A stretch of 64,000 nt of DNA from Pseudomonadota bacterium (GTDB lineage Bacteria > Pseudomonadota > Gammaproteobacteria > Burkholderiales > Burkholderiaceae_C): positions 16,335 through 80,334 of the forward strand of contig JAKBBK010000007.1 of NCBI GenBank assembly GCA_021808525.1, given 5' to 3'. A program made the position numbers and the translations under genes. Numbering within the stretch: the first letter of the stretch is position 1; each line of letters starts with the position of its first letter. Under the pieces are notes generated by a model, which saw only the letters and a list, made by a program, of their open reading frames with translations, ran no database searches and was not told the origin of the DNA. Shown one piece after another: positions 4,096 through 62,118 of the stretch.

Positions 4096-4165
4096 CATGG
4101 CGATGGAGTTCGCCATTCACAATCGCCCCGCATCACACGGGGGCTGATGACTCCTACCGGACGCC
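4096..4165 (+). promoter_or_regulatory. fluoride (crcB) riboswitch
   Basis: GGCGATGGAGTTCGCC ... GGGGGCTGATGACTCCTAC matches the fluoride riboswitch consensus; crcB lies about 135 nt downstream. Confidence 0.92.
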
Positions 4166-4298
4166 GCGCAATGCGGCGGCAGCCAACCATGGAGGAGTCG
4201 AACCCACCCCTGTTCCCCACGCATGCCGCACGAGCCGGCTCCGCGCCGTGGCTCGCATACGTCCGCCCTTTCGGCGATTCTCGATCGAGATCCTCGAC

Positions 4299-4998: not shown

Positions 4999-6270
4999 AT
5001 GGAGCCCTCGCCGCGGGAATCGGAGCAGGAGCACCGGCAGTCACCGGGCCGCTGGCTCAACGCCACGGTGGCCGGCGCCGGCATCACCAGCGCGCTGGGA
5101 GACTTCTGCTACGAGACCACCACCGTCATGCTGCCCGGTTTCCTGGCCGCGCTGGGCCTGCCCGCCAGCGCGCTGGGCACCATCGAGGGCCTGGCCGACG
5201 CGGTGGCCAGTTTCACGCGCATGGGCGCGGGGCATGCCGCCGACCGGCTCGGCCACCGCAAGCTGCTGGTGGTGCTGGGCTACGCGATGACCCCGCTGGG
5301 CCAGGCGCTGATCGCGCTGGCGGCCGGCTGGCCGCTGATCCTGCTCGGGCGCCTGGTGTCCTGGTTCGGCAAGGGCCTGCGCGGGCCGCTGCGCGACGCC
5401 ATCGTGATCCAGGCGGTGCAGCCCCACACCAAGGGTCGGGCCTTCGGATTTCACCGCGCGGCGGACACCGTGGGCGCGGTGCTCGGCCCCCTTCTGGGCG
5501 TGGCCCTGCTCGGCTGGGCGCAGCGCCTGCACTGGCACGGCACGACCGCTCCGTTCCGCCTGGTGCTGTGGCTGTCGATCCTGCCCGGCCTGCTGGCCGT
5601 GCTGGCCTTCGTGCTGCTGGTGCGCGACCCGATGCACTCGCCGAACCCCCGGGCGAGTTTCCTGGGCTCGCTGCGCGAACTGCCCCCCGGCTTCCGGCGC
5701 TACCTCGGAGCCGTCGGGCTGTTCGGCGCCGGGGACTTCTCGGCCTCGCTGCTGATCCTGGCCGCGACCACCTTGCTGGCGCCCTCGCTGGGCATGCTGC
5801 GCGCGGCGCAGGTGGCCGGGCTGCTGTACGTGTGGCGCAACATCGTGCAGGTCGTGGCCTCCTACCCCATCGGCTGGCTGGCCGACCGTTTCGGCCACAT
5901 GCGCCTGCTGCGCGCGGGCTATGCACTGGGGGTCGCCACCGCCCTGCTCGCCGCCCTGGCCTTCGGGATGCATGCGCATGGCATGGTGCTGCTGGGCACG
6001 CTGTTCCTGCTCTCCGGCCTGTACGTGGCGATCGAGGAAGCGCTGGAGCCCACGGTGAGCGCGGAAATGCTGCGCGCCGAGGGCCTGGTCACCGGATATG
6101 CCGCCCTGGGCACGGTCAACGGGGTCGCGCGCCTGGTCTCCAGCAGCCTGGTCGGCCTGGTGTGGACGGCCGCCTCGGCGGCACTGGCCTTCGGGCTGGC
6201 CGCCCTGCTCATGGCCGGCGGCACCGCGGCGCTGCTGCGCGAGGCCGGCGCTCCGCGTCGCCAGGCTTGA
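4999..6270 (+). CDS. MFS transporter in the fluoride-riboswitch operon
   Basis: 423 aa; MFS loops (GHAADRLGHRK, FGKGLRGPLRDAIV, GWLADRFGHMRLL); 5 nt downstream of the DUF190 gene. Confidence 0.85.
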   Translation: MEPSPRESEQEHRQSPGRWLNATVAGAGITSALGDFCYETTTVMLPGFLAALGLPASALGTIEGLADAVASFTRMGAGHAADRLGHRKLLVVLGYAMTPLGQALIALAAGWPLILLGRLVSWFGKGLRGPLRDAIVIQAVQPHTKGRAFGFHRAADTVGAVLGPLLGVALLGWAQRLHWHGTTAPFRLVLWLSILPGLLAVLAFVLLVRDPMHSPNPRASFLGSLRELPPGFRRYLGAVGLFGAGDFSASLLILAATTLLAPSLGMLRAAQVAGLLYVWRNIVQVVASYPIGWLADRFGHMRLLRAGYALGVATALLAALAFGMHAHGMVLLGTLFLLSGLYVAIEEALEPTVSAEMLRAEGLVTGYAALGTVNGVARLVSSSLVGLVWTAASAALAFGLAALLMAGGTAALLREAGAPRRQA

Positions 6271-47726: not shown

Positions 47727-50700
47727 CTAGGGACCAAACCACATGCGGTACTGCAGGGTCCATTGCAGGCTCTGGCCCGAGGCATCGCGCAGGCGCTGGT
47801 AGCCCAGGGCGAGCTGATCCCCGCCCAGCAGCGGTCCGCGCAGGCCGACATCCACGTTGCGGGTCAGGCCCAAGGTACGTGATTGCAGCAGGTCGAGTTC
47901 ACCATAAGGCATCCAGCGCCCGGCATAGCCCCGCGCATGGTCCATGCCCAGGCCGATCCCGACCCCGAAGGCGCTGTCGCTGATGGGCATGAACAAGCTC
48001 GCGTCCGGTACCGCTGCGCCGGGAACCAGCCCGGCGTAGGCCGGCAGGCGCAGCCCGGCCACCGTGCTGAAGTCCTGCTGGTAGCCCAGGAGCTTGAGCT
48101 CCACGTCGGGCTCGCCCAGCCGCAGTCGCAGGCCGATCTGGGCCTGCAGCGCGCGGCCGCTGCCCAGCGCCTGGCCCGAGCGCGTGCGGTAGCGCATGCC
48201 GGCCGCCGTGAGGCTGGCGTACATGCGCCCGAAGTCGCGCTGCAGGCGCAGTTGCAGGCGGTCGCGCGCGCCCGCCACCAGCAGCGCGGCGGATTCGTCG
48301 GCGACGGCGTTGCGCTCGATCTGGATGCGGCTGTCGATGGCCCAGGGCAGGCGCGCCGAGGCTTCGAGCTTCCACCCCTGCGCCAGGCCCACGGCGCGGT
48401 TGCGGGTCCAGCTCAGTCCCAGGCTGCGGTGCCCACCCCGCCAGCGCAGGCCCAGGCTCGCGTCACTCCACCATCCCGGCAGGCCCACCAGGGTCGACGC
48501 ATCGGCGCTGCCCAGGGTCTGGCGCGCGGCGTCGAGGTCCAGGCTCCAGTGGCGGTCCGCCTGCCAGTGCAGGCTGGCCCGGGGGCCGCGACGCACCACG
48601 CTGCCCAGGCGCAGGTCCTGCCATTGCAGGTCCGCCGTGCTGGCCAGCGCGAGTTCACGCGCCGCGGTCTGCGCCTGCAGTGCACGCAGCTGCGGGGAAT
48701 CCTGCCCGGAACGCGCCGCCCGCTCCAGCACGGCCTGGGCGAGGCGCAGCGAGCGCCCCGCCTGGCCGGCTGCCTGCTCGGCCTGCACAAGATCCGGCGC
48801 CTGCAGTGCGGCGGCGCCTGTGCCGCGCAGATCCCTCGCGATGGCCGGGGCGTCCCGAGCCCCCAGGTCGAGTTGCAACCGCAGGGACTGACGCGCGGCC
48901 GCCGACAACGCCTGGTGCGCCAGCCACCAGCGCGCCGCCGAGCGGGTGTCGAGGCCCGCCAGCCAGTCGGCGATGGCCGCGTCGGCGCGCTCGCGCTGCT
49001 TGGGGCTGAGCGTGCCACGCTGCAGGCGCGAGCGCAGCGCGGCGAGCAGGCTCTGCTGCCCTGACGCGCCCACGTAGCGGCGCGAAAGGCGCAGTCGCGC
49101 GATCAGCTCGCCCAACCCGGCATCGGCTGGGGCGGGAGCTCCGCGCGGTGCCTGCGCCGGGCGGCGCAGCAGCTCCCAGGCACGGCCCCAGGCCAGAGCG
49201 GCGCGGCGCGCGTCGCCGAACTGTTCCCACAAGTCACCATAGTCCAGCAGCCACAGCGCATCCGAGGCATGGGCCGGGTACAGGCGCTGCGCGTAGCCCA
49301 GCGCCTCGCGCGTGTCTCCCAGGGCCTGCGCCGCCGCCAGCGAAACCTCCAGGCCCTCGGCGCTTGCGCGCAACGCCGGGGCGAAGCCCGGGAAATGCCG
49401 GCGCAGGCAGGCGCGATCGCCACTGTCGATGCAGATCCACAGCAGGGCGATCTCGTAGCCGCGGTCGCCGGGGGCCAGGCGCAGGGCCTGCTCCTGGTCG
49501 GCCAGGGCGAAGCGCCAACGCCCCAGCGCCTGCCAGACCTGGGCGCGCGCCGCGTACATGTCGGCTCGCCGGGACAGCTGCGCCCACACCGCGCTGTCGC
49601 CCACCTGCTCCTGCCATTGCCGCAGCCCCTGCGCACTGGGCTTGCGCTGCAGCAGCTGCAACCACAGCAGGGCCAGTTCGCGGCTCGGGGCGCGGGCCCA
49701 GGCCTGGCGCAGCAGCGCCAGCGCGGCCGGCACGCCGCGGCTGCGCCGGGTCAGCAGGATCAGGCGCTCGACCTGATAGGCGCCGAGTTCGCCGCGCATG
49801 GAGCCATCGGCCCACACCGAGGCATAGGCCTGCTCGGACCGGGCATCGCGTCCGAGATCCCAGGCCAGGTCCCCCAGCAGGCGCTGGTGCGCCGCGCGCA
49901 GGCTCGCCGGGCCCGGCAGCGAAGGGGTCGAGGCCAGGACCTCGAGGGCGGCGTGGAAACGACCGTCCTGCACCAGGGCGTTCGCGTAGTCGATGCTCGC
50001 GCGCAGATCCAGCTTGCCGCGACGGGCCGCCTCGGCGTAGACCTGCAGGGAGCGTCGGACCTCCCCCATATTGCCCAGCAGCCATGCCAGTGCGGGAAGC
50101 AGGCGGGGATGCGAGCGCGCGCCGCGGCGCAGCACCCGCACGGCGCCTTGCGCATGCCCGGCCGACTCCAGGGTCTGCGCGTAGCGCAGCCAGTCCTGCT
50201 CGCTCAGGGGGCCGTGGGCGGCGCGTTCGCGCCAGTACAGCTCGAGGCCGGCCCCCGCATGCTGTCCCAGCGCGAGCCGGTATACCTGCGCCAGCGCGAG
50301 CTCCGAGTAGTGCCTGCGCAGCAATTGCATCCATTGCCCGAGCGCCGCATCGGGATGCCCGCTCCATTCCAGGACTTGCGCCCGGCGCCTCTGCCACCGA
50401 GGGTCCGCGGGGGTGGCGACCAGCGCCGCGTCCGCGACGCGCAGCGCCTGGCCCGGGTGCCCCGAACCCAGGAGCACCTGCCAGGCCAGCTCGCGCCGCG
50501 ACGCGTTCATCTGGCGCGCCAGCACGGCGGCCGGCTGCTGGACATCGACGCAACGGTGCAACCACTGCATCGCCCTGCCGGGACGGTCCGCGCCCAGTGC
50601 GAGTCGCACCATCATCCAGCGCACGCCGGGCCCGACCTCGGCACGCTCGACCGCGCGCTCGGTCAGGCGCCAGGCCAGCAGGGGCTTGCCCGAGGCCAGC

Positions 50701-51401
50701 AGCACCCGAGCAGCGGACCGGATCAGGCGATCGCGCACCGCGGGGTCGCGCGCGTGCTCGGCGGATGAGAACAGCACGCGGGCCGCCAGCTCGTATCGAC
50801 CCGCGTCGACGAGCAGGGCCCGCGCCTGGCGCGCGCTGGCCGCGTCCAGGGGCAACAGCCGCAGCAGCGACGGCTCCAGCCAGGGCGGCGTGACGCTGGA
50901 GAAACGCCGCGACAACTCCACCGCGGCCTTCCACTGCGCGAAGTCGGCGGGCCGCAAGCCGGCGATCAGGCGCTGGATCGCCGCCCGTGCCTGCCCCATG
51001 GCCGTCGTGTCGCGCGAGGCGACGGCCTGGTCCCAGATGGCCTCCCAGGCGCGCAGGCGCAAGGCATCGACCCGCTCGCCCCGCAGGCCGTCGAGTTCGC
51101 CCAGGGCCTGGCGCGCGCGTCCGACATGCAGGTAGCGCTCGCCGAGCATGGTGCGCAGCGTCGGGTCGCCGGCGCGCAAGGCCGAGAGCTCGCGCAGGTA
51201 GTCGATGGCCAGCGCGTCGTTGCGGGTGCGCGCCAGCAGGGGCAGCAGGGTCCTGCCCGGATAGGCCACCACCAGCAGGGCCACGCACAACAGGGCGAGC
51301 CCGATCAACTCGCCGCGAGGGAAAAGCTGGTTTCGCCGTGGGTCATCCACCCCGACATGCAGGGCATCCGCGGCTGGCGACTGTTTGCGCGGGCTCGGCA
51401 A
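47727..51401 (-). CDS. pelB: Pel polysaccharide TPR/porin PelB
   Basis: 1224 aa; long TPR array and C-terminal beta-barrel ending QSLQWTLQYRMWFGP; operon position. Confidence 0.93.
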   Translation of the reverse strand: MPSPRKQSPAADALHVGVDDPRRNQLFPRGELIGLALLCVALLVVAYPGRTLLPLLARTRNDALAIDYLRELSALRAGDPTLRTMLGERYLHVGRARQALGELDGLRGERVDALRLRAWEAIWDQAVASRDTTAMGQARAAIQRLIAGLRPADFAQWKAAVELSRRFSSVTPPWLEPSLLRLLPLDAASARQARALLVDAGRYELAARVLFSSAEHARDPAVRDRLIRSAARVLLASGKPLLAWRLTERAVERAEVGPGVRWMMVRLALGADRPGRAMQWLHRCVDVQQPAAVLARQMNASRRELAWQVLLGSGHPGQALRVADAALVATPADPRWQRRRAQVLEWSGHPDAALGQWMQLLRRHYSELALAQVYRLALGQHAGAGLELYWRERAAHGPLSEQDWLRYAQTLESAGHAQGAVRVLRRGARSHPRLLPALAWLLGNMGEVRRSLQVYAEAARRGKLDLRASIDYANALVQDGRFHAALEVLASTPSLPGPASLRAAHQRLLGDLAWDLGRDARSEQAYASVWADGSMRGELGAYQVERLILLTRRSRGVPAALALLRQAWARAPSRELALLWLQLLQRKPSAQGLRQWQEQVGDSAVWAQLSRRADMYAARAQVWQALGRWRFALADQEQALRLAPGDRGYEIALLWICIDSGDRACLRRHFPGFAPALRASAEGLEVSLAAAQALGDTREALGYAQRLYPAHASDALWLLDYGDLWEQFGDARRAALAWGRAWELLRRPAQAPRGAPAPADAGLGELIARLRLSRRYVGASGQQSLLAALRSRLQRGTLSPKQRERADAAIADWLAGLDTRSAARWWLAHQALSAAARQSLRLQLDLGARDAPAIARDLRGTGAAALQAPDLVQAEQAAGQAGRSLRLAQAVLERAARSGQDSPQLRALQAQTAARELALASTADLQWQDLRLGSVVRRGPRASLHWQADRHWSLDLDAARQTLGSADASTLVGLPGWWSDASLGLRWRGGHRSLGLSWTRNRAVGLAQGWKLEASARLPWAIDSRIQIERNAVADESAALLVAGARDRLQLRLQRDFGRMYASLTAAGMRYRTRSGQALGSGRALQAQIGLRLRLGEPDVELKLLGYQQDFSTVAGLRLPAYAGLVPGAAVPDASLFMPISDSAFGVGIGLGMDHARGYAGRWMPYGELDLLQSRTLGLTRNVDVGLRGPLLGGDQLALGYQRLRDASGQSLQWTLQYRMWFGP

Positions 51402-51410
51402 TGCGCCCCC

Positions 51411-54284
51411 TCAGGCCCGCCGCAGCAGCAGGTCCAGCGAGGTGCCCTGGCCGTGAACATGCCATTGCTCGCCCTGCCGGCGGGCCGTGACCCCCGGGCT
51501 GGGCGCCAGGGTCCAGCCCGCCGGAAGGCGCAACACCGCCTCGACCGGCACGAAACCCTGCAGGCGCAGGCGCTGGGAACCTGCCTGCGCGGGCTCCCAG
51601 GCCACCACGTCGGCGTTCGCCTCCATCAGCATCGGCCGCGCCGCGGCCGCCGCGCCGACCCGCAGCACGGCATCGCCGGCCAGCACGTGCACGTAGCGCC
51701 GCGATCCATGATGACTCCAGCCCACCACCTGCGCGCAGCCCTCGAGGGCCGGCTCGGCCACGCCGCGGGGCTGCGCCCATTCCCGGATCTGCTCGGCGCC
51801 GCGCAGACGCCAGCCACCGCCCAGGAGGCGCGCCACGGTGGCGCTGCGCCACTGCACCACGCTGCGGGAATACTGCCGCCCCTGAATGGGGTGCACCGCC
51901 TGCGCCAGGGCCCAGCGAAACACCTTGTGCAGGCTTTGCAGGCCGGCCTCGCGGGTGACGATGTAGGGATGGAAGTAGATGTCGATGGGCTTGAGGCGCC
52001 GCGGCAGATCGGTCATCTCGTAGGTTTCGATGGCCCGCTCGAAACCGAAGTAGGGTCCGTGCCAGTCGTGGGTGTAGTCCTCCTCGTTGGAACAGGCCGC
52101 GTAGACCTGGAACCACGAGCCCTTGGGAATGCCCATCGGGCCGACCAGCGAAACACTGGGCGCCGAGCGCGTGATGGTGGCGCCTCCGCCGTTGATGTTG
52201 GCCATGCCCGCGGCATAGGCCATCTCCACCGCCTTCACCGGGGGATTGCAGTCCCCCGGCCACAGCAGCATGTCGCAGGGCTTGCCCGGCGGGCACAGAT
52301 GCTTCTCGATGTAGTCCCTGGCGCCGGTCACGTTGCCGGCGGTGCTGAAACGGTAGTTCGGCAGCGGCAGGTAGTTGCCGACCCCGCCATAGCCCTTGCC
52401 CGTGGGAAAGCGGGCGTGGTAGCGCGAGGCCAGCACCCAGTCGAAGGGATGGGACCAGGTGTGGCTGCCGGCCTCCACCCACGGCAGGGCATACATGCGC
52501 CGCGCCCAGTACTGCGATTGCGAGGCGACCGCCGGGTACAGGCCTTCGCTGCTGACCTCCCCGACGATGATCGAGCCGACGATCGGAATGCGGTACTGCT
52601 CCAGCACTTCGCGCACCAGCACCTGCCCCGCGATCGGGGAGCCGGGGCGCAGGCAGGCATTGGGCCAGCCGTCGCCGTCGAAGTGCGCCATGAGCACGCG
52701 GCGCCCGAAACGCGTGGTCAGGTCGGGCATCGGGTCGTCGGAAACCCGCAGCGCGGCCCGGAAGAACTCGATGGGGTCGATCGACCAGCGGGTGCCGTTG
52801 CCGCCGGGCAGGTTGAACACGCCGAAGGCGCCCAGCGCGTAGCCCCCCCAGGCGGTGATGGCCGCCCCCTGCATGCGCCTGCCCTGGGCGTCCACCGCCG
52901 TCAGCCAGGGCTGCGCATGGGGCCCGGCGTCCACTTCCACCGCGCTGAGCGCATCGACGATGGGCAGGATCTCGCCCGCGGGGGTTCCGGGTGCGCGGCG
53001 GATCTCCAGGGGCCCCGCCAGCGCTCGCTGGCCCACCCGCACTCCGAGTTCGCCGAGAAACTGCGGGTCCAACGCCCCCAGCACGGCCACCGGCACCCCC
53101 TCGTCGCGGGCCCTGCGCAACCAGGCGCCCAGGCCTTGCGGAACCCTGGACGCGTCGGGGTAGAGCACGATGCCGGCCACGCGCCCCGCCAGGGCCTTGT
53201 CGGGCAGAGCCGAGCCCATGTAGCGATAGTCGGGCACCAGGCCCAGATGCTCCAGCGGCATGGCGCCGTACAGGTGGGCGCCCTGCGCCTGGAGCTCCGG
53301 GGCGTCGCCCTGCTCGCAGGAATGCAGCAGCCAGACGCGTCGCGGCACCACCTCGACGCCGCCGACTCCCAGGCTGCTGAGCATGCCGTCGGCCACCCAG
53401 GGAATCAGGCCCTGCTCCGCGATGCGCGCCGCCGTCCGTCGCGCCAGATCACGCTGCGCCACGGCGCAGTAGTCGATGGCGATTCCCGGCAGCGCGAATC
53501 GCTCCCGCATATCCTGGAACCGTGCCATCAGCCAGGCGCGATCGTCCGCGGAAACGTCCACGTAGGCCCGGCTTCGCGGGTCCCAGCCCTGGTACAGGGA
53601 CTCGGCGGCGATGGCGTCGATGGCGGCGGCGAGCCGGGCATCGACGAGCTCGAAACCCCGGTTCAGGATCAGGCGCATGCCGGGAAAGGACCCCACCAAC
53701 TCCTGCAGGGTCTGGCGCAGCGCCTGCTCCTGGCCTTGGCGCTGCGCGGGCGTGCTCGCCGCCAGCTGATAGGAATCCAGCGTGTCGAGAAACAAGCCGC
53801 GGAACCCGGCCTTCCACAACGGAGCCACGATCTGGTCGCGAAGGAATGCCCTCCACCCCGGCGCGGTCTGGTCGATCACCCGCGTGCCCCAGCTGGGATT
53901 GCTCGCCGCCGTCCAGCTGGCCGGCAAGGACTTGAACCGGGGATCCTCGGGGTCGATCTCCCCCACCGACACATAGGCGAAGGGCCGGGTATACGGGCCG
54001 AAGGCGGTGCGCAGATCCTTCGCTTCGGCCAGCGCCGGCTGCGGCTGCACCACCACCCAGTCGAAGGCCCCGAGTTCGTCGAAGGGGATGTCGTCGCCGT
54101 AATAGAACGCCACCGCCGGCCGCTCCTGCGCGGCCGACCGGCCGCCCCCCGAGGAGCTGGTCGTCGCTCCAGGCGCGGCCGACGCGTGCGCCGCGGGCAG
54201 CGTCGCGCACCAGGCCCGGCGGCTCCACGGCAGGGCGGCCGCACAGCCTTGCATCAGGGATCGAAGAAAACGTCTACGTCGCAT
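51411..54284 (-). CDS. pelA: Pel polysaccharide deacetylase/hydrolase PelA
   Basis: VAFYYGDDIPFDELGAFDWVVVQP hydrolase domain, HFDGDGWPN, SHTWSHPFDW deacetylase motif, LLWPGDCNPP. Start MRRRRFLRSL. Confidence 0.96.
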   Translation of the reverse strand: MRRRRFLRSLMQGCAAALPWSRRAWCATLPAAHASAAPGATTSSSGGGRSAAQERPAVAFYYGDDIPFDELGAFDWVVVQPQPALAEAKDLRTAFGPYTRPFAYVSVGEIDPEDPRFKSLPASWTAASNPSWGTRVIDQTAPGWRAFLRDQIVAPLWKAGFRGLFLDTLDSYQLAASTPAQRQGQEQALRQTLQELVGSFPGMRLILNRGFELVDARLAAAIDAIAAESLYQGWDPRSRAYVDVSADDRAWLMARFQDMRERFALPGIAIDYCAVAQRDLARRTAARIAEQGLIPWVADGMLSSLGVGGVEVVPRRVWLLHSCEQGDAPELQAQGAHLYGAMPLEHLGLVPDYRYMGSALPDKALAGRVAGIVLYPDASRVPQGLGAWLRRARDEGVPVAVLGALDPQFLGELGVRVGQRALAGPLEIRRAPGTPAGEILPIVDALSAVEVDAGPHAQPWLTAVDAQGRRMQGAAITAWGGYALGAFGVFNLPGGNGTRWSIDPIEFFRAALRVSDDPMPDLTTRFGRRVLMAHFDGDGWPNACLRPGSPIAGQVLVREVLEQYRIPIVGSIIVGEVSSEGLYPAVASQSQYWARRMYALPWVEAGSHTWSHPFDWVLASRYHARFPTGKGYGGVGNYLPLPNYRFSTAGNVTGARDYIEKHLCPPGKPCDMLLWPGDCNPPVKAVEMAYAAGMANINGGGATITRSAPSVSLVGPMGIPKGSWFQVYAACSNEEDYTHDWHGPYFGFERAIETYEMTDLPRRLKPIDIYFHPYIVTREAGLQSLHKVFRWALAQAVHPIQGRQYSRSVVQWRSATVARLLGGGWRLRGAEQIREWAQPRGVAEPALEGCAQVVGWSHHGSRRYVHVLAGDAVLRVGAAAAARPMLMEANADVVAWEPAQAGSQRLRLQGFVPVEAVLRLPAGWTLAPSPGVTARRQGEQWHVHGQGTSLDLLLRRA

Positions 54285-54467
54285 ACTGGCAGGGGGCGCC
54301 GCGCCGAGGCCCGGACAATCCCGCCATTGTGCAATGACGAGCGGCAATGCGCGGAGTTTCTGTAGCTTAAATCGAACAATCCTCGCCAACTTCGCGGCGC
54401 ACCTGGCTATTCCACGCGGCTGGCGCAATATCGTTCCGGACGCTCTCGCGCGGCATCGCGCCGGCCC

Positions 54468-56045
54468 TCAATACGGCGCGAGCAGTGCATACATGTTGCT
54501 GCGGTATGGCCCGGCGCCCTGCAGCAGCAGCGCCTTGCCGGCGCCGCTCATGCCATGCGCGATCTTGCCGGCATTCACCAGCGTGCGCAGTGCATCGAGC
54601 CGGTCCCCGCTGGTCAACGGCCCCAGGATCAGCGCGACGTCCTTCGCGTGCAGGTTGCCCGCGAGGTCGCCGGCCACCAGCGCGATGGCATTGCTGCGGA
54701 AGGCGTCGGAATTCGCGACCATGCTGGCGACATCCGCAGCCGACAGCCCCTGCCGCACCTTTCCCGCCTGCTGCAAGCTCTGCAGCACATTGAGGCAGTC
54801 CCCGTTGCGCGCATTGCCGATGAGGCTCACGACATCCTGGGCGTCGAGCCCGCCGGCCAGCGCGGGGCTGAGCAAGGCGACTGCATTGGGCCAGAACGGC
54901 TCGGTACCCCCGAGAATGGCCAGCGCACCCTTGGTCGACAGCCCCTGCTTGATGCGCCCGGCCTGGATCAGGCTGCGCAAGGCGTCCAGGCGGTCGCCAC
55001 TGCCCAGCGGGCCCAGGACCGCGGCGACCTGCGCACCATCGAGTCCCGACTGAAGGGCCGGAGCCAGCAGTTGGACTCCGTTGGATCGAAAGGGGTCGAT
55101 GCCGTTCAGCAACTTGACGGCCTGCTCGACGTGCAGGCCGAAGGGCAACTGCCCCTTGCTCTGCGCGTCGCGAAGCATCTGCAGACGGTCGCCTTGGCTG
55201 CTGTTGCCGAGAATCGAGAGCAGGCCCGAGACGTCCGGCGCGGGAGGCGCTGCCGACGCAGGCGCAGGCTTGGCAGCGGCGGTCGCGCTCGCCGGAGATG
55301 GAGCCGGCGCCGGTGCCGCCGGGCTCGGCTTCGCCACAGCACTCGCCAGCACCGGCGTTGCCGCGGCCACCTGGGTCGGTGCCGGAGCATCGGCGCGTGC
55401 TGCGACGGCCCCCGGGTGCGTGGAGCCGGCGGCGGGCGCCGACGCGAGCACTGCCGCCGCCATCGCGACCGGCTTGCGCGATGCCGACGCATGGCGGCCG
55501 AACAGTCCGCCCATCCATGCCGCGCCCGCAGCGACGACGATCAAGCCAGCAGCGCCGAGAGCGACGAGGGGGCTCTTGCCCCTGCCACGCCGACGCGGCC
55601 CACCCGCGGGCCCCGGCTGGGTGCCATCCAGTTCGCCGAGCATGCCGCCGATGTGATCGCACAGCTCGTCAAGCTGGCGGTCGAAATCGTCGAACAGGTC
55701 GATGAATTGGCGATTCGACAACTGGTATTGAAGCGCTCCCGATGCGGGCACGTCCTCGATACGCGCGGGAATGATGATCTTCTTGCTCGCCAGCGAGAGC
55801 TCCTTGGCGATCTCGGCGGAGGCGTTCGCGTTCGCCGAGAACACCAGCACCACCGCACGCGCGCTTTCGATGGCGGCCACGATGCAGGATTGATAGTCCG
55901 ATCCTGGGGGAATGTCGCGCGAACTGATCCAGGCATCGATGCTGCGCGCGCGCAGCCGTTGGTAGATCTTTTCGGCAAGCTTCTTGTCGGCGCTCGAGAA
56001 GGAAATGAAGACTTTCATGGTGTTGTTGTCGTGCGGAGTGATCAT
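54468..56045 (-). CDS. TIR-domain protein: TIR, single TM, Ala/Pro linker, four 65-aa repeats
   Basis: TIR motif KVFISFSSADKKLAEKIYQRLRARSIDAWISSRDIPPGSDYQSCIVAAIESARAVVLVFSANANASAEIAKEL; TM PLVALGAAGLIVVAAGAAWMGGLFG; GDRL-type repeat at residues 285, 350, 415, 480. Confidence 0.9.
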   Translation of the reverse strand: MITPHDNNTMKVFISFSSADKKLAEKIYQRLRARSIDAWISSRDIPPGSDYQSCIVAAIESARAVVLVFSANANASAEIAKELSLASKKIIIPARIEDVPASGALQYQLSNRQFIDLFDDFDRQLDELCDHIGGMLGELDGTQPGPAGGPRRRGRGKSPLVALGAAGLIVVAAGAAWMGGLFGRHASASRKPVAMAAAVLASAPAAGSTHPGAVAARADAPAPTQVAAATPVLASAVAKPSPAAPAPAPSPASATAAAKPAPASAAPPAPDVSGLLSILGNSSQGDRLQMLRDAQSKGQLPFGLHVEQAVKLLNGIDPFRSNGVQLLAPALQSGLDGAQVAAVLGPLGSGDRLDALRSLIQAGRIKQGLSTKGALAILGGTEPFWPNAVALLSPALAGGLDAQDVVSLIGNARNGDCLNVLQSLQQAGKVRQGLSAADVASMVANSDAFRSNAIALVAGDLAGNLHAKDVALILGPLTSGDRLDALRTLVNAGKIAHGMSGAGKALLLQGAGPYRSNMYALLAPY

Positions 56046-57887
56046 TCAGGCCTTGGGCATTTCGAGCTCGTGCGACTTGTGCAGCAGCGCCCAGTCCGCC
56101 TGTTCGCGCAGCGCCTCGATGCCAAGATCGCGCAGGATGCCGCGCAGGTGCGCGCGGCAGCGCGACTTCGCCTCGGCGTGGGGCAGCAGGGCCTGGTACA
56201 GAGCGCGCGCGGTGCCGAAGAGGTCGTGCATGCGCTGATGTTCGCGCACATCGTCGCGATATCCCGCGAACTCGAGGTAACCGGCCAGCAGCCCCGACCA
56301 CGCCGGCAAGAGCCCGAGGGTCACCACCAGCCAGGCCCTGGCCGGCGAATCGCCTCCGCCCAGTCCGTCGACATGGCCCAGCATCCCCGCGAGCACCAGC
56401 AGCGCCAGTCCCACGGCAGCGCGATAGGCCCACTTGGATACAGCCTGGATGCGGTTGACGACGGCTCGCCGGCGCCGCACGCTCTGCGTGAAATAGGCCA
56501 GCTGGTCCTCGAGCCAGGCGTTCAGGACCTCCGACAACGCGCTCTCCGATTCGTCGGGCCCAACCGGAACCAGCCCGGACAGAGCAGTACGCACCCATTG
56601 CAGGGTCGTGCCATGGCGTCTCAGGTAATGCTTCGATACGGGCTCGACGATGCCCCCCGCCACCCAGAAGGTCTGGACCCGAAGGCCCTCGGCGAGTACG
56701 CGCCAGTCGACCGCGCGTTCGTTGGCCTCGGTTCGCCGCAGGACTCTGACCTTCACACCGATCAGGCTCATCAGCCCCAGGTAGACGGCGAGCCAGTACC
56801 AGGCCGTGAAGACATGGGCCCAGGTCTCGAACACGGTGGCCAGCGCCACCGCCAGGATGAATATGTTGCGCACCTGCTTGCGCACATCGTGGATACCGCT
56901 GTTCGCCATGGCGTCGGCGGCCAGGAACCGTGCGTACAAGCTGCCGACCAGCGGCGAGACCCTGGACGTCGAGGCGGCCCGCCACTTGGCGGTGATCGCC
57001 ACCAGCGCCTCGGGCGGCGCAAGGTGCTCGCGCAGGCGCGCGTTGTAGGCGTCGAGTTCCTGCAGGTGCCGCAGTACGGATTCCCGCGGATCGTCAGGCA
57101 GCTTCGGCATCCACTCGCTGTCGCTGAAGGCCCATCGCGGAGCCTGCACGTCCTCCACGCCTGGCGGGCTGGGCTGGCTGCGGCGCCGGGTCGGGAGCCA
57201 GCAGACGATGCCGACCTGCGGTTGATCGAGCAGGCTGGCATCGAGCAGCCGGTCCAGGTGCTCGATGCCGTCGCCGTGTTCGTTGAGCAGGCGGATATCC
57301 CGGCGTGCGCTGACGATCTGGGCCGTCCCGCCGAGGCCGCGTGCAGGCTGACCGTCCCAGGCGGCGATCAGGATCTGGGCCCGACCCGCCAAGTGCAGCC
57401 CGGCCTGCGCGTACTGCAGATCACGCCCCAGTCCGGCTTGCGCGGCGCCCTCGGCGTCCACCCCGGCGACCCATGGCAGGGCACTGACCTGGCGCGCCCT
57501 GGCCAGGAGCGCATGAAATTCGTCGGCGGACTCCGGGAAATCCCGCTCGTACTCGGAGCACGGCAGCGGCAGCACCACGTCGAGGGCCAGTCCGCGTGCG
57601 AGCGCGGCCGCGGCGAACACGCGGTCCGCCCCCTCGGCCAGCGAACTGAGCGCCTGCAGCGGAGTGTGCGGGAGGCGCTCGGCGATGAGATCCAGGACCT
57701 TGCCGATGGCTTCCTGCAGCAGATGAGCGTCGGCCGGATCGCGGTGCCCGGTGACCGCGATCGTGACAGGGATGGCGAAGTCGTCGGCACCCGTGGGGCC
57801 TCTCACGGCAAAGTCGGGCTGTTGCGAGCGCTGCGATTCCATCAAATCGATCAGACTGGCTGGATCGTCGCGCGGGGCATGCGCCAC
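56046..57887 (-). CDS. SLOG-domain (nucleotide-sensor-like) protein fused to multi-TM (SLATT-like) region
   Basis: VTGHRDPADAHLLQEAIGKVLDLI...ALSSLAEGADRVFAAAALARGLALDVVLPLPCSEYERDF (SLOG), then hydrophobic segments IFILAVALATVF, WYWLAVYLGLMSLIGV, AAVGLALLVLAGMLG, AWLVVTLGLLPAWSGLLAGYLEF. Confidence 0.8.
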   Translation of the reverse strand: MAHAPRDDPASLIDLMESQRSQQPDFAVRGPTGADDFAIPVTIAVTGHRDPADAHLLQEAIGKVLDLIAERLPHTPLQALSSLAEGADRVFAAAALARGLALDVVLPLPCSEYERDFPESADEFHALLARARQVSALPWVAGVDAEGAAQAGLGRDLQYAQAGLHLAGRAQILIAAWDGQPARGLGGTAQIVSARRDIRLLNEHGDGIEHLDRLLDASLLDQPQVGIVCWLPTRRRSQPSPPGVEDVQAPRWAFSDSEWMPKLPDDPRESVLRHLQELDAYNARLREHLAPPEALVAITAKWRAASTSRVSPLVGSLYARFLAADAMANSGIHDVRKQVRNIFILAVALATVFETWAHVFTAWYWLAVYLGLMSLIGVKVRVLRRTEANERAVDWRVLAEGLRVQTFWVAGGIVEPVSKHYLRRHGTTLQWVRTALSGLVPVGPDESESALSEVLNAWLEDQLAYFTQSVRRRRAVVNRIQAVSKWAYRAAVGLALLVLAGMLGHVDGLGGGDSPARAWLVVTLGLLPAWSGLLAGYLEFAGYRDDVREHQRMHDLFGTARALYQALLPHAEAKSRCRAHLRGILRDLGIEALREQADWALLHKSHELEMPKA

Positions 57888-58445
57888 CGCCTGCCCGTCG
57901 GCGGCTCTTTCACATCAACGCAACGATCGAAACGGGAGAAATCCTGCCGAGCGCCGCCGAGATTGCGAAACGGTTGCCGCAGCATGGGTGGATGGGCAAA
58001 GTCTACGTGTCGTTACAGGCGCGGTGTCAAGGTGGCTTTCCTATTGTTTCTGTTCGCTACCGAATATCCCGGCTGATTATCCCCGACAACACCCTGGGAA
58101 TTTGTCTTCCGGCGCCGGCATTTCTGGTCAATCTCCAGCGACCGGGGGAGGAGCCTGTGGCCCCTTCGGGTTCATGCTCAGCCCGACTTGAGCATCGCTG
58201 GCTTCAGGCTGCCGTGAGGCTCGATCGGCAACGACCAGGCGCTCAGTCCATGGCCCTTGAACGGGCGGATTTTCTCCTGTTGCTTGAGATGCTTCGGGTC
58301 CGCTCGCGAATCCATCCGACTTTCTCGGAACTGGATTGATTTGAAAGCGGGGATCTTCGGACTTTGGTCCAGTAGCATGGCTGATGGCGCAGTCATGAAG
58401 CTTGGCTTCCAACGCCTGCGGACCGTCCCCACGACATTAGCTAAG

Positions 58446-58464: not shown

Positions 58465-58493
58465 AACATAATGTGTGATTGCCGGGAGACGCC

Positions 58494-58742
58494 ATGCATA
58501 CCGTGAACATGTTCGATGCCAAGTCCTCGCTGTCACGCCTGGTCGACGCCATCGAACAAGGCCGTGAACGGGAGATCGTGATCGCGCGCAACGGACGACC
58601 CGCGGCGAAGCTTGTCGCCGTGGGCGAACCGACGCCGGGAACCCGTCTGGGCGTCGCCAAAGGCCGCTTCGAAGTGCCCGAGGACATCGACGCCCACAAC
58701 GCCGAGGTGGCTCGACGGTTCGGCCTGCCTCCAGCGCCATGA
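58494..58742 (+). CDS. type II antitoxin, Phd/YefM family
   Basis: MHTVNMFDAKSSLSRLVDAIEQGREREIVIARNGRPAAKLVAV. Confidence 0.92.
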   Translation: MHTVNMFDAKSSLSRLVDAIEQGREREIVIARNGRPAAKLVAVGEPTPGTRLGVAKGRFEVPEDIDAHNAEVARRFGLPPAP

Positions 58743-59125
58743 ACCTGCTGCTGGATACCCATGTGGCGCTGTGGGCCATCACCGACAGTCCCAGGCTCAC
58801 GGCTCGCGCGCGAGAGCTGATCGCTTCGCCGCGCTCGTCCATCTGGGTCAGCGCGGCGACCCTCTGGGAGATCACGATCAAGCACGCACTGCATCGCGGC
58901 GACATGCCGGTGTCCGGCCAGGATGCCCTGCGCTACTTCCGCGAGGCTGGCTACCGGCTGCTGCCCATCGAGCCCGAGCATGCCGCCGCGCTCGCGGAGC
59001 TCGCGCCACACCACCAGGACCCCTTCGACCGCATGCTGGTCGCGCAGGCGCTGACCGAGCCGATGCGACTGCTCACGCACGACGCCCTCGTGGCTCGCTA
59101 CAGCGACTCGATCATCGCCGTGTGA
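58739..59125 (+). CDS. vapC: type II toxin, PIN/VapC family
   Basis: MNLLLDTHVALWAI, SAATLWEITIK, HHQDPFDRMLVAQAL acidic residues; 4-nt overlap with antitoxin. Confidence 0.93.
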   Translation: MNLLLDTHVALWAITDSPRLTARARELIASPRSSIWVSAATLWEITIKHALHRGDMPVSGQDALRYFREAGYRLLPIEPEHAAALAELAPHHQDPFDRMLVAQALTEPMRLLTHDALVARYSDSIIAV

Positions 59126-59171
59126 TCAAAACCCTCGCCATGCATGCGGGTATACGGTCGCATCGCACCGC

Positions 59172-59290
59172 CCGTTCCGCCATGCGACCAAGCCCGGGAA
59201 GGTGACCGTGCCGTACCCGAAGAAGGACCAGCCGCTGCCGACCGCGCGCTCGATCATGAAGCAGGCCGGGATCGAATCCCAGGAGACCCG
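59172..59290 (+). pseudogene. hicA remnant (C-terminal piece)
   Basis: Translation from 59175: FRHATKPGKVTVPYPKKDQPLPTARSIMKQAGIE, the HicA C-terminal motif, with no N-terminal half in frame. Confidence 0.7.
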
Positions 59291-59390
59291 ATGCTCTACC
59301 CCGCCTACGTCCACATCGGAGACGACCAGCACGCCCACGGCGTGACCTTCCCCGATTTTCCGGGTTGTTGCTCGGCCGCGGACACGTGCA
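59291..59390 (+). pseudogene. hicB remnant (N-terminal piece)
   Basis: MLYPAYVHIGDDQHAHGVTFPDFPGCCSAAD is a HicB N-terminus; homology ends abruptly near 59390. Confidence 0.7.
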
Positions 59391-59400
59391 TCAATGATGG

Positions 59401-59434
59401 TGGCTCGCCGACCAGGGCGAATCTGGGCACTGGA
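59401..59434. repeat. 34-bp direct repeat, copy A
   Basis: tggctcgccgaccagggcgaatctgggcactgga; 32/34 identical to 60467..60500. Confidence 0.85.
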
Positions 59435-59501
59435 CTCTCACCCTACCAACACATCGCCACCCGGGTGGGATGCACCCGAGTGGCTAACGGTAAAGGTCGC
59501 T

Positions 59502-59522
59502 TGTCAGGACACTGTCCGGACA
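59502..59522. promoter_or_regulatory. tandem TGTC(A/C)GGACA boxes, candidate operator for the DUF1778-GNAT module
   Basis: tgtcaggaca-c-tgtccggaca, 40 bp upstream of antitoxin start. Confidence 0.65.
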
Positions 59523-59562
59523 CATAGAATGAAGGCATCCAAGACAAGACCGAAGGGGTCCC

Positions 59563-59841
59563 ATGAACACCCTGAATCTTTCCAAGACCGAACGCATTGA
59601 CGTTCGTGCAAGCACGCCGGTCAAGCAGCTGCTGCAGGAGGCCGCGCGCGCCTGCCACAAGAACGTCAGTGAGTTCCTGCTCGACGCAGGCGTGACGGCG
59701 GCCGCGCAGACGCTGGCGGATCGTCGCCGGTTCGTGCTCGACGAGGCGCAGTGGCAGGCGTTCCAGGACGCGCTGGATCGTCCAGTGCAAAACAAGCCGC
59801 GCCTGAAGACGTTGCTGCGTGAACCCGGGGTGCTGGGTTGA
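59563..59841 (+). CDS. DUF1778 (TacA-like) antitoxin
   Basis: KTERIDVRASTPVKQLLQEAARACHKNVSEFLLDAGVTAAAQTLADRRRFVLDEAQWQAFQDALDRP. Confidence 0.92.
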   Translation: MNTLNLSKTERIDVRASTPVKQLLQEAARACHKNVSEFLLDAGVTAAAQTLADRRRFVLDEAQWQAFQDALDRPVQNKPRLKTLLREPGVLG

Positions 59842-60341
59842 GCAGTGGCTACGCGCCCGTTCGCAAGCTGCTTGTTACGGATCAGGTCGATGCCTTCGAC
59901 TGCGGCCAGGCCGCGCTGAACCAGTTCCTGCAGCGCTATGCGCTCGTCAATCAGAAGGCCAACAGCGCGCAGACCTACGTCTGCTGCCACGGTGATGTGG
60001 TGGTCGGCTTCTACAGCCTCGCCGTCGGTAGTGTCGATCCGGACACCGCGCCATCAAGAGTGATGAAGGGACTGGCGCGCCACCCGGTACCGGTCATGAT
60101 CCTGGCCCGACTCGCGGTGGACAAGGAGCATCAGCGTAAAGGCCTGGGCCAGGCATTGCTCAAGGACGTGCTGCTGCGCACCGCACAGGCCGCCGACATC
60201 GCCGGCATCCGTTGCCTGCTGGTGCATGCCAAGGATGATACGGCGCGGCTCTGGTACGAGTCCTGGGAATTCGAGCCTAGCCCGACCGATCCTTATCACC
60301 TGTTCCTGATGCTCAAGGATCTCAAGGGCATGTTGAGCTGA
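59838..60341 (+). CDS. GNAT acetyltransferase toxin (TacT/AtaT-like)
   Basis: FDCGQAALNQFLQRYA, VVGFYSLAVG, LARLAVDKEHQRKGLGQALLKDVL; TTG start overlapping antitoxin stop. Confidence 0.92.
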   Translation: MSSGYAPVRKLLVTDQVDAFDCGQAALNQFLQRYALVNQKANSAQTYVCCHGDVVVGFYSLAVGSVDPDTAPSRVMKGLARHPVPVMILARLAVDKEHQRKGLGQALLKDVLLRTAQAADIAGIRCLLVHAKDDTARLWYESWEFEPSPTDPYHLFLMLKDLKGMLS

Positions 60342-60432
60342 GGTGGTGTCTCCACCTCAGAGCCCGACTCTCTCGCGCTGCTCATCCCACAGCGCCGGCG
60401 GATTGACCGCCAGATCGGACGGCGAAATGAAA

Positions 60433-60460
60433 ACGGCCCCTGCATCGCTGCAAGGGCCGT
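60433..60460 (-). terminator. intrinsic terminator (minus strand)
   Basis: ACGGCCC-loop-GGGCCGT with T-rich tract on the minus strand. Confidence 0.65.
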
Positions 60461-60466
60461 CGAATG

Positions 60467-60500
60467 TGGCTCGCCAACCAGGGCGAATCCGGGCACTGGA
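60467..60500. repeat. 34-bp direct repeat, copy B
   Basis: tggctcgccaaccagggcgaatccgggcactgga; see 59401..59434. Confidence 0.85.
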
Positions 60501-60565
60501 GCGTCACGCTCGCTTCAGCGCCCTGAGGCACACGACCGGAACGCCCTTACGCCCTCGCGTCGCGC

Positions 60566-60847
60566 TCAAGCCGCAAGTTCCCGCAAGATCTCCGGATGGC
60601 GCGTTGCAACGATCATCAACGTTTGCGCCGCACCGGACGGCTTGCGTCGGCCCTGCTCCCACTCCTGGAGCGTGCGCACCGATACCCCCATGAGTGCGGC
60701 GAATTTCGACTGCGAGAGTCCCGAGGCAGCTCGCGCCTGGGCAACCGGCGAATGAACGACGGCACCCTGCCCGGCTCGCATCTGCTTGACCGATTCGAGC
60801 AGCTTGTGCCCGAGCTCCTCTCCGGTCATGACGTCACGCTTGGACAT
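60566..60847 (-). CDS. XRE-family HigA-like antitoxin
   Basis: MSKRDVMTGEELGHKLLESVKQM...ARAASGLSQSKFAALMGVSVRTLQEWEQGRRKPSGAAQTLM. Confidence 0.9.
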   Translation of the reverse strand: MSKRDVMTGEELGHKLLESVKQMRAGQGAVVHSPVAQARAASGLSQSKFAALMGVSVRTLQEWEQGRRKPSGAAQTLMIVATRHPEILRELAA

Positions 60848-61152
60848 GGTCGATTTCCTCCTTGATGGCCTTGAGGATGTCGGCGGGAATGGTACCGCGC
60901 ACGGCCTTCGCATAGATGACCAGAAGGAAGATCACGCCGCTTTCCAGTCGGTTCGTAGATCACACGAACTCCGCCGCGCTTGCCAGTGCCCGAGCGGCTC
61001 CACCGTACCTTGCGACATCCGCCCGAACCCGGGATAACGTCACCTGCCAACGGGTTCGTGGCAAGCCACGCGCAGAACTCGCCACGCTCATCCTCGGTCC
61101 AGATCGACTTGGCGTCAGAGCCGAAAAGCGGTGTCTCGACGACGGTGTACAT
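60834..61152 (-). pseudogene. RelE/HigB-type toxin with frameshift
   Basis: MYTVVETPLFGSDAKSIWTEDERGEFCAWLATNPLAGDVIPGSGGCRKVRWSRSGTGKRGGVRVIY then the natural continuation NRLESGVIFLLVIYAKAVRGTIPADILKAIKEEIDHVQA* is in another frame; break near 60955. Confidence 0.8.
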
Positions 61153-61243
61153 GGCACGCATCATACGTCATTGACGTATGCAAACAGCTTTCGGAAGCAA
61201 CATCCATGCGCCAGCCATGGTGATGAGGCGGTCTGGTTGCGCT

Positions 61244-61657
61244 TCAGGAGCGACCTCGACCTGACGCTCCTGCCCCGCGCCCCACTCCCTCAGCGAGAAG
61301 CATTGTGATCAACGTATTGAGCGACGTTCCCTCCGACCGGGCGCGTGCGACCAGCTCTGCATGGAGACTGCGCGGCAACCTCTGCACCAGCTTCACCGGT
61401 TCCGGCGTTTGTCCGTGACGCGTCGGCTTCGGGATGGGCTTGCCCATATCGGCGCGGGCGGACATCCAGGCCGAGAACGCATCGCGACCGTTGGCGATGG
61501 TCTCCTCGATCGTCTCGCCGTCAGACATGCAACCCGGAAGGTCGGGAAACGTGATGATGAATCCGCCGCCATCCTCCTCGGTCAGCGGTTCGACGATGTG
61601 CGGATAGGCCTCGAAGGCATACGGCGCCTCGACATGCGCGATCTTGATGTCGATCAT
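61244..61657 (-). CDS. hicB: HicB-family antitoxin
   Basis: YPHIVEPLTEEDGGGFIITFPDLPGCMSDGETIEETIANGRDAFSAWM. Confidence 0.92.
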   Translation of the reverse strand: MIDIKIAHVEAPYAFEAYPHIVEPLTEEDGGGFIITFPDLPGCMSDGETIEETIANGRDAFSAWMSARADMGKPIPKPTRHGQTPEPVKLVQRLPRSLHAELVARARSEGTSLNTLITMLLAEGVGRGAGASGRGRS

Positions 61658-61899
61658 GGCTGTGACTCCCTCACCTTGTCGCACAGTGCGACGAAATGGC
61701 GGATGTAGATGGGCTTGATCGGGCGATGCGCCGGAATGCAGACATCCTCATCGACGCCGGGGTACGAGAACACATGATGACCGCCACTCTCATTGCGACA
61801 GCTCAACCCCAGGCGCGCTGCGATCGACTTCACCTCATCGATACGCCAATCACGCGGATTGTTGCGCATGCGCTCCAGAGCCTTCTCATGCCTGACCAT
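61654..61899 (-). CDS. hicA: HicA-family mRNA interferase toxin
   Basis: LGLSCRNESGGHHVFSYPG...PAHRPIKPIYIRHFVALCDKV; catalytic His region; overlaps hicB start. Confidence 0.88.
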   Translation of the reverse strand: MVRHEKALERMRNNPRDWRIDEVKSIAARLGLSCRNESGGHHVFSYPGVDEDVCIPAHRPIKPIYIRHFVALCDKVRESQP

Positions 61900-62042: not shown

Positions 62043-62118
62043 TGGCTCCCCGACCTGGGCTCGAACCAGGGACCTACGGATTAACAGTCCGGCGCTCTAC
62101 CGACTGAGCTATCGGGGA
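62043..62118 (-). tRNA. tRNA-Asn (anticodon GTT)
   Basis: Minus strand TCCCCGATAGCTCAGTCGGTAGAGCGCCGGACTGTTAATCCGTAGGTCCCTGGTTCGAGCCCAGGTCGGGGAGCCA. Confidence 0.97.

Follow-up and report, generated by a model that had tools for sequence, protein, structure and literature searches.

We found that two adjoining minus-strand genes probably form an immune-type signalling module, one that resembles Thoeris in how it works but not in how it is built. They lie in a 64,000-nucleotide stretch of DNA from a Pseudomonadota bacterium of Burkholderiaceae_C (contig JAKBBK010000007.1, positions 16,335 to 80,334; hereafter the window), and encode a SLOG-SLATT membrane protein (gene 1) and a membrane-anchored TIR protein (gene 2). 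We lean towards reading the pair as a two-gene, membrane-based module in which TIR would make an ADP-ribose (ADPR)-type nucleotide, SLOG would sense it, and SLATT would act on the membrane. The computations gave the domain content, the SLOG and TIR folds, a conserved catalytic Glu in TIR, the absence of the LOG catalytic Glu in SLOG, recurrent pairing of the two genes, a likely topology, and the insertion of the pair as an accessory unit. The pair has the following features:

56046..57887, minus strand: gene 1, SLOG-SLATT membrane protein (open reading frame of 613 aa, GTG start)
57192..57767, minus strand: N-terminal SLOG Rossmann domain of gene 1 with TGHR, LAEGAD, LPLP, WDG, and GGT motifs (model, PDB fold matches, near-invariant motifs in 50 sequences)
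56175..56954, minus strand: SLATT-type membrane region of gene 1, four transmembrane (TM) helices on long helices (TM prediction, model, family-level profile matches)
54468..56045, minus strand: gene 2, membrane-anchored TIR protein (open reading frame of 525 aa, ATG start; TIR_2 match)
55626..56018, minus strand: TIR domain of gene 2, predicted cytoplasmic, with the catalytic Glu82 codon at 55800-55802 (Pfam, AlphaFold2, fold matches)
55512..55568, minus strand: single TM helix of gene 2 (hydropathy 2.15 at residues 160-178)
55230..55511, minus strand: Pro/Ala-rich linker of gene 2 (sequence; disordered in the model)
54471..55229, minus strand: four tandem 65-aa helical repeats of gene 2, probably extracytoplasmic (self-comparison, period 65)

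As a preliminary description of this DNA had noted, the two open reading frames abut without a gap: the gene 1 stop codon (TGA, 56048-56046) is followed directly by the gene 2 ATG (56045-56043), with AAGG just upstream, and the genes are probably translationally coupled. The junction showed no RNA structure (z=+0.8), and no promoter or terminator candidate near the pair rose above chance. The conserved part of gene 1 begins only near 57806, so translation may in fact begin within the reading frame as listed.

Sequence profiles gave the gene 1 protein a YAcAr match below the cut-off (E=0.003) and a sub-threshold SLATT_4 match (E=0.095); none of the other SLOG families matched at E<=1, and the SLOG assignment is therefore weak by sequence. 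AlphaFold2 modeling with 50 family members (pLDDT 87, pTM 0.89) predicted an N-terminal Rossmann domain followed by long helices (residues 285-331, 336-383, 424-476, and 488-544) that carry four TM segments, the same number as in the separate TM prediction. A whole-chain search of the PDB with this model retrieved ShosA, DprA, LOG, and the Moco carrier protein with probabilities near 1 and E >0.01, and TRPM channels were also among the matches. By the model, the N-terminus is clearly a SLOG fold, and it combines the Rossmann fold with the conserved nucleotide-site motifs of the SLOG superfamily. Neither the gene 1 nor the gene 2 protein has a significant sequence match among solved structures.

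Across the 50 family members, SLATT_3 matched in 33, DUF4231 in 26, and SLATT_1 in 25, and these SLATT/DUF4231 matches cover the first TM pair in the members whose positions were read. On these profile matches we place the gene 1 family among the SLATT membrane effectors, an assignment made at family level, the window protein alone being sub-threshold. A SLOG-type protein with several TM segments, and the proposed coupling of SLOG to a membrane effector domain, were thus borne out. Profile comparison detected no duplication of the two TM pairs within gene 1. All 50 members have V, I, or T where LOG enzymes have their catalytic Glu, and the pocket motifs TGHR, LAEGAD, LPLP, WDG, and GGT vary hardly or not at all. 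Because the pocket is kept while the Glu is replaced, the SLOG domain fits a ligand sensor rather than a hydrolase. Among defense models, the PADLOC model for ShosA matched 9 of the 50 members, and neither PADLOC nor NCBIfam holds a model that covers the gene 1 family as a system.

The N-terminal 130 residues of the gene 2 protein match TIR_2 (Pfam, E=1.3e-24). Its AlphaFold2 model is confident over residues 10-140 only, and in the PDB this part has SPARTA, plant immune receptors, and SARM1 as neighbours, each with its TIR domain. Glu82, singled out in the preliminary description, is correctly placed, and the catalytic Glu is conserved in 39 of 39 SLOG-adjacent TIR domains, including that of the window. 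Structure prediction, proposed there as a check, therefore returned both the SLOG and the TIR fold. The membrane anchor and the repeats attributed to this protein were also found: one TM helix, with RRRGRGK on its TIR side, and four C-terminal copies of exactly 65 aa each (self-comparison). Among 274 genomes of the class, related repeats occur in one other protein only, and weakly (E=1e-4). This protein (L132:6676-8214) has many such repeats, no convincing Pfam match, and a signal-peptide-like start, which suggests that the gene 2 repeats are likewise located outside the cytoplasm. The TIR protein was not found on plasmids.

Exactly one TM helix follows the TIR domain in 31 of the 38 adjacent TIR proteins that are long enough to judge. 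Lys and Arg are commoner on the TIR side of the helix in 28 of these 31 and commoner on the far side in none, and the TIR domain is therefore predicted to face the cytoplasm, with the variable C-terminal part (TPR, WD40, or repeats) on the outside. Such a helix is also present in 10 of 17 more distant TIR genes of the same loci, so that the partner TIR proteins are not alone in having one. Membrane anchoring of the TIR protein is the rule for the module and suggests that the protein is a transmembrane receptor.

The pairing of TIR with SLOG-SLATT recurs across bacteria. A scan of GTDB species genomes yielded 231 loci with gene 1 relatives, of which the best 80, all from other species, were kept for pairing counts. 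Counted with a custom TIR profile that was seeded partly from these same loci, 40 of the 80 relatives have a same-strand TIR gene no more than 1.3 kb away, and two have one on the opposite strand. In a Pfam check, the TIR_2 match was above the cut-off in six of six sampled partners (L035, L039, L046, L062, L067, and L076), as it was for the partners in L027, L033, and a Caballeronia plasmid; the plasmid is an independent annotated case, in which a TIR protein comes after a DUF4231 protein. TIR_2 genes occur genome-wide at about one per Mb (30 of these genomes), and the flank searched amounts to 0.2 Mb, so that a fraction of one TIR gene is expected by chance. The co-occurrence check thus upheld the conservation of the pair across genomes. 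Distances among the SLOG domains correlate with those among their TIR partners (r=0.88; none of 2,000 permutations reached it); by this sequence comparison the correlation shows long association rather than co-evolution proper, because vertical descent contributes to it. In separate trees, which have long branches and rough support, the SLOG and TIR domains of the window both group with the joint partners of L035, L037, and L040, and L039 joins this group in the TIR tree only.

The partners of the gene 1 family vary while SLOG-SLATT stays constant, which supports the module. They include TIR-TPR, TIR-WD40, TIR-FGE (L024), and SIR2-TIR (L030) proteins, a DUF4062-STAND protein in the place of TIR (L082 by Pfam; L021 and L029 likewise by eye), DUF4062 (L028), nSTAND1 (L070 and L103), and patatin (L025). 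DUF4062 is a TIR-like NADase in anti-phage defense (PMC13174449), and TIR, SIR2, and DUF4062 are all NAD-consuming folds with NAD+ as common substrate. A nucleotide-gated effector would look like this, with a constant SLOG-SLATT protein and exchangeable NAD-using partners.

Some of these loci hold further genes. In L034 (3495-5228) and L043 (4915-7212), the gene just before SLOG-SLATT is TrkA_N-RyR channel-like and TIR genes come after; the channel-like genes are possibly another nucleotide-responsive membrane component. Several Lysobacterales loci encode a small protein between the TIR and SLOG-SLATT genes (L066:7470-8015, L076:7353-7955, L080:2561-3064, and L098:7587-7997), in some cases with a signal-peptide-like start and with no Pfam match where tested (L066 and L098); it is a possible third component. 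A protein near a TIR gene in L033 (7255-9021) has a TPR-S sensor and, by eye, a stretch that resembles SLOG and a cyclase-like C-terminus, and the Caballeronia plasmid encodes a TPR-S and guanylate-cyclase protein (L133:1908-3674) 3 kb from its DUF4231-TIR pair.

The preliminary description called the pair Thoeris-like, which stands for the way it would work and for the difference in layout that it already conceded, but not for membership. Neither protein has a SIR2 match at E<=1, the gene 1 model consisting of SLOG and TM helices only, and no macro domain was matched. The ThsA-type SLOG senses 3' cyclic ADP-ribose (3'cADPR) at the C-terminus, whereas the SLOG of gene 1 is N-terminal, with only the weak YAcAr match and none to the ThsA-type family. 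Gene 2 does encode a ThsB-like TIR with the catalytic Glu and matches the PADLOC ThsB model, though through its TIR domain alone (E=8e-8); ThsB_TIR (PF08937) matched several relatives and not the window protein, and the ThcB4 equivalog of Thoeris type III (NCBIfam) scored 25.5 bits of the 220 required, again over the TIR domain only. The pair does not answer to the definition of either characterised Thoeris type and is not to be filed as Thoeris, although by analogy it very likely works like one.

That analogy can be drawn to both types. In ThsA, 3'cADPR is the ligand sensed by SLOG, and the TM-macro form of ThsA has the membrane as its site of action (PMC11204291). The pair shares with SIR2-SLOG Thoeris (PMC11204291, PMC7272460) a two-gene make-up, a TIR enzyme with a SLOG-bearing partner, and SLOG as the nucleotide sensor, but has no SIR2, an N-terminal SLOG of another family, a SLATT-type effector, and a transmembrane TIR. 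TM-macro Thoeris (PMC11204291) likewise couples TIR to a nucleotide-responsive membrane effector, whereas the pair has SLOG instead of macro as sensor and four SLATT-type TM helices. SLATT effectors have been predicted to adjoin SMODS, SLOG, and TIR genes (PMC9503650, PMC7159879) and to be ADPR-regulated permeability effectors (PMC9503650). The pair resembles them in the SLATT membrane domain, the nucleotide-signal logic, and the TIR neighbours, but joins SLOG and a four-TM SLATT region in one protein of ~570 aa, next to a transmembrane TIR. Swarozyc and other DUF4062 TIR-like NADases (PMC13174449) are related through the DUF4062-STAND proteins that replace TIR beside the gene 1 family; Swarozyc differs in that it is described as acting with the phage portal as trigger, and no membrane partner is mentioned for it (PMC13174449).

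Two likenesses concern gene 1 alone. TRPM channels carry a SLOG-like region at the N-terminus. Gene 1 therefore recalls TRPM2, TRPM4, and TRPM8, in which an N-terminal SLOG-like nucleotide-binding region sits on a membrane channel, but Foldseek gives an E of 0.007 at best and a low whole-chain TM-score, and nothing indicates homologous membrane parts. To our knowledge, ShosA has neither a TIR partner nor a SLATT membrane region. It shares with gene 1 a SLOG/DprA-like domain (PADLOC model; PDB 8zva). In TRPM2, ADPR is reported in the MHR1/2 site (PMC7438885).

In the mechanism we propose, gene 2 would encode a single-pass membrane receptor with a cytoplasmic TIR and the repeats outside, triggered probably by phage attack or envelope damage. 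Triggered TIR domains would associate and convert NAD+ to an ADP-ribose-type nucleotide, which the partner SLOG domain would bind as a non-catalytic sensor; the four-helix SLATT region would then open or oligomerise, so that the membrane is perturbed and growth is stopped or the cell killed. This keeps the scheme of the preliminary description and adds the receptor topology to it. We infer the NAD+ chemistry, ligand, gating, trigger, and anti-phage outcome, drawing on Thoeris (PMC11204291) and on the SLATT predictions (PMC9503650, PMC7159879). A more specific version, which we put forward only tentatively, is a transmembrane TIR receptor pathway in which an outer sensing domain, a TM helix, and TIR yield a messenger of the cADPR type, which in turn gates a channel controlled by SLOG and analogous to TRPM2, with the outer domain (repeats, TPR, WD40, or others) swapped between lineages for differing envelope or phage cues. 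With its outer domain, single TM helix, and TIR in the cytoplasm, this arrangement recalls Toll-like receptors.

That TIR genes neighbour SLATT genes is already a published idea (PMC9503650, PMC7159879), and SLATT as a nucleotide-gated pore is a prediction of long standing, stated as such, with the ligand left open, in the literature covered. The pair joins a presumed sensor (SLOG), a presumed pore (SLATT), and a presumed messenger-maker (TIR) in one compact, recurrent unit, which makes the SLATT prediction directly testable. A partial literature search, in which nothing relevant on type III Thoeris or ThcB turned up, found no experimental test of this layout, and as far as that search shows, SLOG-SLATT with a transmembrane TIR is experimentally undescribed as a recurrent two-gene unit. 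In the literature covered, the triggers named are phage capsid and phage portal, both encountered in the cytoplasm; a transmembrane TIR receptor, if gene 2 encodes one, would give bacterial TIR immunity a route from the outside in as well.

The pair is an accessory, acquired unit in a variable spot, since gene 1 is absent from all 27 congeners searched and the relative G430 (PelA 88% identical) shows an empty site. In G430, ~130 bp lie between the homology ends, and the pair is the only recognisable gene content of the missing segment; in G436, by eye, another toxin-antitoxin (TA)-like pair occupies the position. The surroundings are as follows:

54430..58435: segment absent from G430, the acquired unit (homology to G430 ends at 54429 and resumes at 58436)
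47727-54428, minus strand: pelB-like (PelB barrel, E=8e-45) and pelA-like (GH114) genes, immediately downstream of genes 1 and 2
58479..61899: neighbouring TA genes, namely Phd-PIN, TacA-GNAT, MqsA-like HTH with partner, and HicAB (Pfam; context only)
62043-62118: tRNA-Asn, beside the TA-rich variable spot
59400-59444 and 60466-60510: window copies of a dispersed repeat, with further copies at L127:6126-6168 and L128:3139-3176, 4152-4191, and 5370-5452

Several observations weigh against an immune-type module. The gene 1 protein of the window is itself below the cut-off for SLOG and SLATT profiles, for which the evidence is family-level and structural. Half of the sampled gene 1 relatives have no close TIR gene, some of them being at contig ends or with other partners, and vertical co-inheritance could account for part of the linkage and of the distance correlation. 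The TIR protein yielded no recognised phage-sensing domain, the gene 1 family occurs in no phage record (viral contigs gave one match), and the only defense context at the locus is a TA-rich variable spot.

An unlikely alternative, though one with arguments behind it, is that the TIR protein, by depleting NAD+, is what does the killing, the SLOG-SLATT protein being a regulator or membrane sensor that releases TIR, with no soluble messenger. The TIR-like Swarozyc kills by bulk NAD+ loss (PMC13174449), both proteins of the pair are predicted in the membrane, where direct contact is possible, and abutting, probably translationally coupled genes suit a complex. This would, however, leave the conserved SLOG pocket and the SLATT membrane domain unexplained, and a constant SLOG-SLATT with a varying outer domain in the partner is what a sensor with a common effector predicts. 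We consider it distinctly improbable that the pair serves non-immune envelope signalling, for example as an envelope stress sensor with ion homeostasis or the neighbouring pel polysaccharide operon as its target. The likely extracytoplasmic domain of the TIR protein, the position of the pair immediately 5' of a co-oriented pelA, and the TrkA_N-RyR channel-like neighbours in L034 and L043 would suit such a role, but G430 has pelA without the pair, the 27 congeners lack the pair, and no pel genes were noticed in the homologue loci that were read. The pel linkage therefore looks incidental and the pair dispensable. Highly improbable, finally, is a SLOG domain that acts as a LOG-like nucleotide hydrolase making or erasing the signal on a membrane part that is an anchor only: the SLOG superfamily does include LOG enzymes (fold matches; PMC9503650), but the catalytic Glu is replaced throughout the family and a four-TM SLATT region exceeds a mere anchor.

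A functional linkage with the pel operon was accordingly rejected, and the operon is an incidental neighbour. Insertion of the pair may have changed the pel promoter context. The TA island that the preliminary description had cited in support of a defense role was confirmed by Pfam but counts as weak rather than strong evidence, because relatives carry TA genes at this spot without the pair. The spot lies between pelA and tRNA-Asn, and the tRNA-Asn site is a plausible integration hotspot. A dispersed repeat (core GGCTCGCCGAACAGGGCGAATCTGGGCACTGG) occurs between TA cassettes and, in G430, at the site where the pair is missing; it was found in only two copies in the window's own genome, and the variable spot may use it for recombination.

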